Shown here piece by piece: positions 50,816 through 51,937 of a stretch of 64,000 bases of DNA. The stretch's first letter is position 1, and each line of letters starts with the position of its first letter. The notes beneath the pieces are model-generated. The model did no database searches. It was not told the origin of the DNA and saw only the letters and a program-made list of their open reading frames with translations. The DNA comes from Halobacterium sp. R2-5 (GTDB taxonomy: Archaea; Halobacteriota; Halobacteria; Halobacteriales; Halobacteriaceae): positions 248,001-312,000 of the forward strand of contig NZ_JAANTH010000002.1 in assembly GCF_011734195.1 (NCBI RefSeq). The letters run 5' to 3'. The translations under genes were made by a program, and so were the position numbers.

Positions 50816-51256
50816 ATGGCTACCGCCGACACCGACGACTTCGACATCGACGAGTTCGACGCTCAGAACCTCCCGGACTCCGTCGACCAGGCCGCCGTCA
50901 AGCGGATGCGAGCGGTCGCGTGGGCGCTCGACGACGCCATCCCCGTCCCCGGCACGAACTACAAGATCGGCATCGACCCCATCGTCGGCATCCTCCCCGT
51001 CGGCGGCGACGCCGCGACGGGCCTCGTCTCCCTCTACATCGTCGCTGAATCAGCGCGCCTCGGCGTCCCCCGAGAGAAGCTCGTCGCCATGCTCGTCAAC
51101 ATCGCCATCGACGTCGGCGCCGGCTCCGTCCCCGTCCTCGGCGACTTCTTCGACGCCACCTGGAAGGCGAACACCCGGAACTTCAAAATCGCCGTCGAGG
51201 AGCTCGACGACGCCGCCCCCGCCGACTCCGGCGGGACGGAAATCACTATCGAGTAA
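50816..51256 (+). CDS. DUF4112 domain protein
   Basis: A 146-residue protein. The DUF4112 core is visible as IGIDPIVGILPVGGDAATG and NIAIDVGAGSVPVLGDFFDATWKAN, each a hydrophobic stretch that may insert in or lie on the membrane. The first 30 residues are acidic. The ATG at 50816 is used rather than the GTG at 50810. It is divergent from carB and convergent with a DUF5815 gene. Function unknown. Confidence 0.88.
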   Translation: MATADTDDFDIDEFDAQNLPDSVDQAAVKRMRAVAWALDDAIPVPGTNYKIGIDPIVGILPVGGDAATGLVSLYIVAESARLGVPREKLVAMLVNIAIDVGAGSVPVLGDFFDATWKANTRNFKIAVEELDDAAPADSGGTEITIE

Positions 51257-51391
51257 TCCGGCGAACGGTCCCACCACGCCCGCTACGCGGGTGTGTCGTA
51301 CTCGTCCTCGAAGTTCCGGCGGACTCGACGAGTCCGCCGGCGTCCCGTTCGCTGCACTCACGGGACTCCCGAGGGATTTCGAGGACGACAC
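51257..51391. repeat. Palindromic element inserted at the end of the DUF5815 gene
   Basis: CCGGCGGACTCG and CGAGTCCGCCGG (51316-51340) form a perfect 25-base palindrome with a single central base. GTGTCGTACTCGTCCTCGAA occurs both at 51293-51312 and at 51402-51421, the latter inside the DUF5815 coding end. On the minus strand the outer copy encodes NFEDEYDTPA followed by its own stop. GGGATTTCGAGGACGACAC (51373-51391) is also an inverted copy of 51402-51426 apart from six extra bases. The layout suggests element insertion with duplication of the gene tail. Confidence 0.65.
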
Positions 51392-51937
51392 TCACGCAGG
51401 CGTGTCGTACTCGTCCTCGAAATCCCGCTGCGCGCGGTACGCGTCCACGAACTCCGCCACGTCGAACTCCTGCATCTGTGCTTCGAACTCCGAAGCCGTG
51501 CCGTCGTCCTCGGCGTGGCTCACCGCGTGGTCCATCAGCTCCACGACCAGCTCGACCACTACCTCGTGGAGCTCGCGGGCGTCCATGTCCGTCACCCACA
51601 TGAGCGCGTACCCGACGCTCCCGTTCTCACTCTGGTCGACGGCCTCCACGGACTCCGGCAGCTGCTCCATCACCGCCCCCAGCAGGTGCGGCGTCCCGAA
51701 CTCCTCGAACTCGTCCTCGGGCGCCGGCGTCACCGCCTCCTTCAACACCGCGACGATATCCTCCGGCACGAACCGCGACGGCGGATGCATGTCCATCACC
51801 ACCGCGTGCGTCTCCCCGCACGAGCACTCGTACTCCCGCATCCCCATGTCGAAGTCCTTCACGTGCGCCTCCTCCCCGCAGGGCAGCTCCACCCACCCGT
51901 CGTCGTCCTCGGCGCCCGGAACGCGCGGCTCGGTCAT
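51392..51937 (-). CDS. DUF5815-like zinc-knuckle protein
   Basis: A 181-residue protein with VELPCGEEAHVKDF and ECSCGETHAVVMDMHPPSRF near the N-terminus, giving Cys and His residues for one metal site. A helical body with many Glu and Val residues follows. It resembles haloarchaeal DUF5815 proteins (label from memory). It ends FEDEYDTPA; a second copy of this ending lies downstream beyond a palindromic element, so the 3' end has been rearranged. Function unknown. Confidence 0.8.
   Translation of the reverse strand: MTEPRVPGAEDDDGWVELPCGEEAHVKDFDMGMREYECSCGETHAVVMDMHPPSRFVPEDIVAVLKEAVTPAPEDEFEEFGTPHLLGAVMEQLPESVEAVDQSENGSVGYALMWVTDMDARELHEVVVELVVELMDHAVSHAEDDGTASEFEAQMQEFDVAEFVDAYRAQRDFEDEYDTPA

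Follow-up and report, generated by a model that had tools for sequence, protein, structure and literature searches.

A 109-bp hairpin unit that repeats the end of a DUF5815 gene in Halobacterium and probably occupies a recombinase attachment site

In Halobacterium sp. R2-5, the end of a DUF5815 gene is followed by a 109-bp unit composed of a second copy of the gene's tail, an inverted copy of the same tail, and two hairpins. We consider it probable that the unit is a non-autonomous insert at the attachment site of a tyrosine recombinase, and that the gene was rebuilt by the incoming core. The proposal is drawn from the sequence of the window (the whole 64-kb stretch of DNA that was analysed) and from comparison with other haloarchaeal genomes. 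By anatomy, the unit groups with a larger set of hairpin units that lie behind tRNA genes; the grouping is architectural and does not imply common descent.

The coordinates of the features are collected in Table 1. The last ~30 nt of the DUF5815 gene, which has orthologues in 91 of 98 relatives, form the inner tail and at the same time copy 1 of the putative attachment site, and this inner tail matches the 27-nt core around the integrase element of Halobacterium sp. KA-4. A preliminary description of the locus had taken the inner copy for the real coding end, and the Pfam assignment (PF19132, E 6e-77) agrees. The outer copy does read NFEDEYDTPA followed by a stop codon on the minus strand, as that description had it. 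The 20-base direct repeat that it reported is exact (51293-51312 and 51402-51421), and the similarity extends over 34 nt at 88% identity (51285-51318 and 51394-51427). The two tails differ at 5 of 31 nt in this genome and at 1-2 of 31 nt in relatives. The stop codon is located within the duplicated core, an arrangement best read as the means by which the gene stays intact.

Between the two tails, the unit can fold back on itself. The inverted arm, which had been described as an inverted copy of the coding end serving as a second arm, is complementary to 51411-51426 of the inner tail at 16 of 16 positions, and pairs less well with the outer tail. The perfect 25-base palindrome previously placed between the tails is present as hairpin 3, with 12-bp arms and a 1-nt centre. 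The unit is non-coding and carries no integrase gene of its own.

Table 1. Features of the DUF5815 locus in the window, and of related loci in this and other genomes.
Feature	Position	Strand	Details
DUF4112 gene, convergent neighbour of DUF5815	50819..51256	+	PF13430, E 1.8e-33
Whole 109-bp inserted unit (putative)	51285..51393	.	one tail copy, inverted arm and two hairpins; start-to-start spacing 109
Outer tail, att-like core copy 2, reads NFEDEYDTPA-stop	51285..51318	-	direct repeat D1
Hairpin 3, 25-nt palindrome	51316..51340	-	9 shared pairs, 100% paired in 4 species
Hairpin 2, GTCCCGT...ACGGGAC	51342..51366	-	7 pairs, 100% paired in 4 species, one compensatory pair
Inverted tail copy	51373..51388	-	I1 and I2; kept in 4 species
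Inner tail, att-like core copy 1, stop codon at its 3' end	51394..51427	-	direct repeat D1
DUF5815 gene, intact	51392..51937	-	ORF of 181 aa; Pfam PF19132, E 6.4e-77
KA-4 integrated element, 4.67 kb, plasmid- or virus-like	L256 634-5277		between two tail copies
Example tRNA units, own genome	L080 12608-12950; L066 14740-14960; L069 7640-7860; L063 12035-12240		
Citrate synthase double tail	L066 11414-11721 (G000:C2:71414-71721)		also in G002 and G012
~60-kb stretch	G000:C2:525381-585141 (partly L085-L088)		two SNJ2-type integrase genes near right end
SNJ2-type integrase genes of the ~60-kb stretch	L088 8723-9727 and 11925-12878		

The two-tail structure is not due to chance. The tail pair is the best direct repeat at 30-400 nt spacing in the window, with a score of 22, and 0 of 30 order-2 Markov sequences contain a repeat pair with a score of even 18. 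The palindrome is the only one in the window with arms of at least 12; palindromes of that size occur in 4 of 20 Markov sequences, so that the palindrome alone is less striking. The preliminary description had proposed to search for it elsewhere in the genome; it is not a dispersed repeat, as the best other matches in the genome are weak and partial. Folded as single-stranded DNA, the region has a z score of -6.75, and two orthologous regions have z scores of -3.9 and -3.2.

The DUF5815 locus was oriented in 12 congeners. Two tails are found in the R2-5 genome and in three other Halobacterium species (G010, G002, and G012). In Halobacterium sp. CBA1126 (G009), a single tail is followed directly by the carB upstream region and the 109-bp unit is absent, which is the empty site that the preliminary description had proposed to look for in relatives. 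One tail is also found in G006, G008, G003, G007, and others. The sequence past the outer tail of the two-tail species is homologous to that past the single tail of CBA1126 and past attR of KA-4. Because the flanks align, the extra DNA counts as inserted when compared with the CBA1126 allele, or was lost there, and the earlier picture of an insertion that leaves the gene intact holds in this comparison; gain and loss look alike here, because the genomes stand for species and not for populations. As to gene order, DUF4112 lies between DUF5815 and carB in the window, and carB comes directly after DUF5815 in G010, G002, G012, CBA1126, and KA-4.

The stem sequences of the hairpins vary among the four two-tail species and their pairing is kept, with 96% of cells paired over the whole structure vs 35-51% in slid controls. 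Five pairs are changed on both sides, compared with 1.9 expected from shuffles (0 of 500 shuffles as high), and in hairpin 3 three pairs are changed in this way. Coming from only four sequences, the compensatory changes may count as modest evidence. In addition, the two tails inside one genome are alike and share species-specific endings (GCCGGCGTAGCGGGGT in both copies in G002, GCCCGCGTRAGTGTCGT in G010), which suggests that the copies still recombine, through conversion or reinsertion. In a tree of DUF5815, the two-tail species fall into more than one clade, although the forks are weak, and KA-4 is placed beside two of them with moderate support. An old insertion with later losses is thus no less possible than recent mobility.

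In Halobacterium sp. KA-4 (G004), the DUF5815 tail is found again 4671 nt downstream (27 nt, 85% identical). The element between the two copies consists of AT-rich DNA with a DUF1424 Rep gene, a gene for a zinc-ribbon protein, and a gene for an SNJ2-type tyrosine integrase. The integrase gene adjoins the outer tail, and the integrase is 37% identical to that of SNJ2 over 93% and ~40% identical to that of HRPV-9; SNJ2 and other pleolipoviruses supply its relatives, at 37-40%. Beyond the outer tail, ordinary chromosomal sequence follows. Since KA-4 carries an integrase element between two tails, the DUF5815 gene end can be regarded as an integrase attachment site, and the mini-unit and the integrase element appear to be alternative occupants of one site. 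The KA-4 element sits at the end of a protein-coding gene, not at a tRNA. No hairpin of the unit type is present at the KA-4 att site, and no plasmid match to the DUF5815 locus was found.

Three marks of an attachment site are found at the DUF5815 locus: a direct repeat of the gene end with the gene restored, an empty allele in a relative, and use of the site by an integrase-encoding element. A fourth, an integrase encoded by the element itself, is lacking in the unit, so our claim is limited to a non-autonomous occupant. In the mechanism we propose, an integrase acting in trans would insert the unit by recombination within the core ...TACGACACGCCCGCGTA..., and the incoming copy would supply the stop codon and so rebuild the gene. 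What is conserved would be the hairpins with the inverted tail, and not a gene. Folded recombination sites are used in integrons and CTX-type phages, and by analogy the hairpin would most likely help the unit to act as a recombination substrate.

The preliminary description had suggested a small non-autonomous element with duplication of the target. The insert stands, but duplication of the transposase type does not; an att core used in site-specific recombination fits the locus, and we prefer it because the repeat is ~30-40 bp long, ends the coding frame, and lies in the same place as the integrase element of KA-4. Mobilisation of a MITE or IS fragment by a transposase, with a target-site duplication of 20-34 bp, would account for direct repeats around a palindromic core. 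However, usual IS target duplications do not reach the length of this repeat, whose copies moreover differ, and the internal sequence has no repeats elsewhere in the genome, all of which makes this origin very improbable. It is rather unlikely that the unit is a relic, in which a full-size integrative element between the tails was deleted to a stub and the tails are the old attL and attR. The same site does hold a full-size element in KA-4, and some integrated elements are known to lack an integrase gene (PMC8371274), but the supposed stub has nearly the same length in four species, where its hairpin set is kept by compensatory changes, and known SNJ2-type att ends have no such hairpin. Nor would random deletion give the one conserved structure that the tRNA units share across the order.

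The strong hairpins between the convergent DUF5815 and DUF4112 genes could also belong to a functional RNA or a bidirectional terminator, the tails having arisen by local tandem duplication or template switching. Template switching produces inverted copies, and hairpin correction may keep palindromes perfect. However, a terminator scan of the unit finds no terminator-like T-run. Moreover, carB runs in the same direction in G010, G002, and G012, where the unit is still present, and CBA1126 is without the unit. This origin, which leaves the coincidence with an integrase site and the copying by tRNA units of their own tRNA 3' end without explanation, is in our view unlikely.

Units of a similar plan are found behind tRNA genes, and these are probably a bigger finding than the DUF5815 unit. 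A scan of the R2-5 genome for close direct repeats, covering 464 kb and later ~1.65 Mb, read in stretches, gives cases with inverted arms mainly at tRNA 3' ends, at citrate synthase, and at the DUF5815 locus, together with ordinary coding repeats. At least 18 of the 41 tRNA genes have a second 3' end downstream (threshold of at least 14 of 20 nt), and in nearly all 18 cases this second end is the 3' arm of a long hairpin. The order within a unit is inverted T-arm, AGTCGC, GC hairpin, CGTCT, and T-arm plus acceptor strand. At citrate synthase, an 84-nt copy of the coding end, 94% identical and open to the stop codon, is located 224 nt downstream with hairpins between, and in each species the tails show concerted evolution.

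To describe the tRNA units we use a covariance model, R2, whose structure was read from individual folds; it replaced an earlier model, R1, which was dropped for its poor automatic structure (12 pairs). R2 units are found in 13 of 13 Halobacterium genomes, with 2-34 in each, and in 97 of 116 haloarchaeal genomes, representing 41 of 48 genera. In a 148-genome sample of the phylum, all 22 genomes with matches belong to the same order and none was found outside it. Fifty of the 53 checked units are downstream of a tRNA on the same strand, in arrays of up to four. The tails of 50 units at other loci are 87% identical to their own tRNA vs 61% to other isotypes. In the A3 alignment of these units, 17 of 23 pairs show changes on both sides (192 cells vs 60 in shuffles), including 10 of 12 pairs in helix 1, with the reservation that the alignment was fitted to the model, so that pair percentages lean towards it, and that double changes in the T-arm follow isotype. 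A search of Rfam with eight tRNA-unit loci returns tRNAs only at the gathering score. R2 has no match at 51285-51427, and because the model does not recognise the DUF5815 hairpins, we do not file the DUF5815 unit in the R2 family and take the resemblance as one of architecture.

Integrase genes lie near some of the tRNA units. In the R2-5 genome, a tRNA gene (C2:525307-525381) is ~60 kb away from a unit that ends in the tail of this tRNA (C2:585122), and one of the two integrase genes in the stretch between directly precedes a further tail fragment. An integrase gene is also found directly beside tRNA-tail units at L183 (G011) and L194 (G006). The integration sites of known SNJ2-type viruses are tRNA 3' ends, and the cores measure 13-15 bp (PMC7911831; PMC8371274); the annotated attP of these viruses agrees with such ends and cores. 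The R2 hairpin has no match in five SNJ2-type virus genomes, and the idea that it is an ordinary SNJ2 attP was dropped for this reason. Because KA-4 and isolated SNJ2-type viruses have no hairpin at their att sites, the hairpin is tied to the integrase only by position and shared sites. Seven viral contigs with an inverted T-arm pair have perfect palindromes, but R2 scores them weakly on either strand and those checked have no tRNA alongside, and we judge them unrelated.

A wider and more doubtful proposal is that haloarchaea possess an integron-like system whose anchors are tRNA 3' ends and, in a few cases, protein-gene ends. In it, tyrosine recombinases that use folded single-stranded DNA would add minimal cassettes head to tail, each with a hairpin site at its end that copies the tail of its host gene, and the DUF5815 unit would be a protein-gene example. 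In the literature searched, accounts of tRNA-tail arrays in haloarchaea are confined to classical proviruses, SMR/PATE/MITE elements, and tRNA processing, many subscription papers lying outside the search.

Three further repeats were noted. In one (L063 13880-14060), a low-molecular-weight-phosphatase/ArsC-like gene has a doubled start. The upstream version, an in-frame ATG with ..AFVCVQN, is followed by an inverted copy and a hairpin, and the real gene start comes 89 nt later. Another is an intergenic pair of 64-nt GC-rich repeats, 111 nt apart, with GAACGG..GTGAGCCG motifs (L076 9911-10130), resembling the GC-rich palindromic repeats common in haloarchaea. The third (L160 10322-10620; G000:C1:290322-290620) is a tandem array of 63-nt exact repeats with ~132 nt spacing and AGTGAGGTTCGATGCCCTTAAGTAATAACGGG.

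If our reading of the DUF5815 unit is true, archaeal integrase attachment sites harbour a hidden class of gene-less mini-elements, which would account for the spare copies just downstream of several tRNA and protein gene ends. Such spare copies matter for the annotation of islands and pseudo-tRNAs. A large share of the tRNA genes of Halobacteria is followed by a conserved hairpin array, which Rfam lacks for the eight loci searched and which was not found in the literature consulted. With this array described, the spread of such units and the possible role of folded DNA as their recombination substrate become testable questions.

The DUF5815 unit resembles several known kinds of element. It is short, non-coding, and palindromic, like MITEs, but differs from them in having no dispersed copies in its own genome and no short target duplication of fixed length, and no link to the ends of a transposon was found. 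SMR-A of Haloquadratum is likewise ~110 bp long, non-coding, and haloarchaeal, with inverted repeats and a mobilisation that is unexplained (PMC3119063). SMR-A elements, however, do not duplicate their target, use IS605/PATE palindromes as insertion sites, and show high similarity within a type (PMC3119063), whereas the DUF5815 unit has a long tail copy and each unit carries the tail of its own gene. SNJ2-type (betapleolipovirus) elements share with the unit insertion at a 3' gene end and restoration of the gene by a short direct repeat. The known SNJ2-type viruses use tRNA 3' ends with 13-15-bp cores and have no hairpin in attP; the unit in the window has no integrase and is only 109 bp long.

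In the attC site of integrons, an inverted core comes first, then a variable hairpin, then a direct core. The tRNA units and the DUF5815 unit differ from integrons in that they have no cassette ORFs, their anchor is a tRNA or a gene end, and their core copies the host gene; moreover, the only integrases seen are of the SNJ2 type. We draw the resemblance without claiming membership. In layout, however, both kinds of unit have the same succession as attC, with an inverted core, a hairpin, and a direct core at the unit end. As in integron arrays, the tRNA units stand head to tail behind a fixed anchor, here the tRNA, and their structure is conserved more than their sequence.
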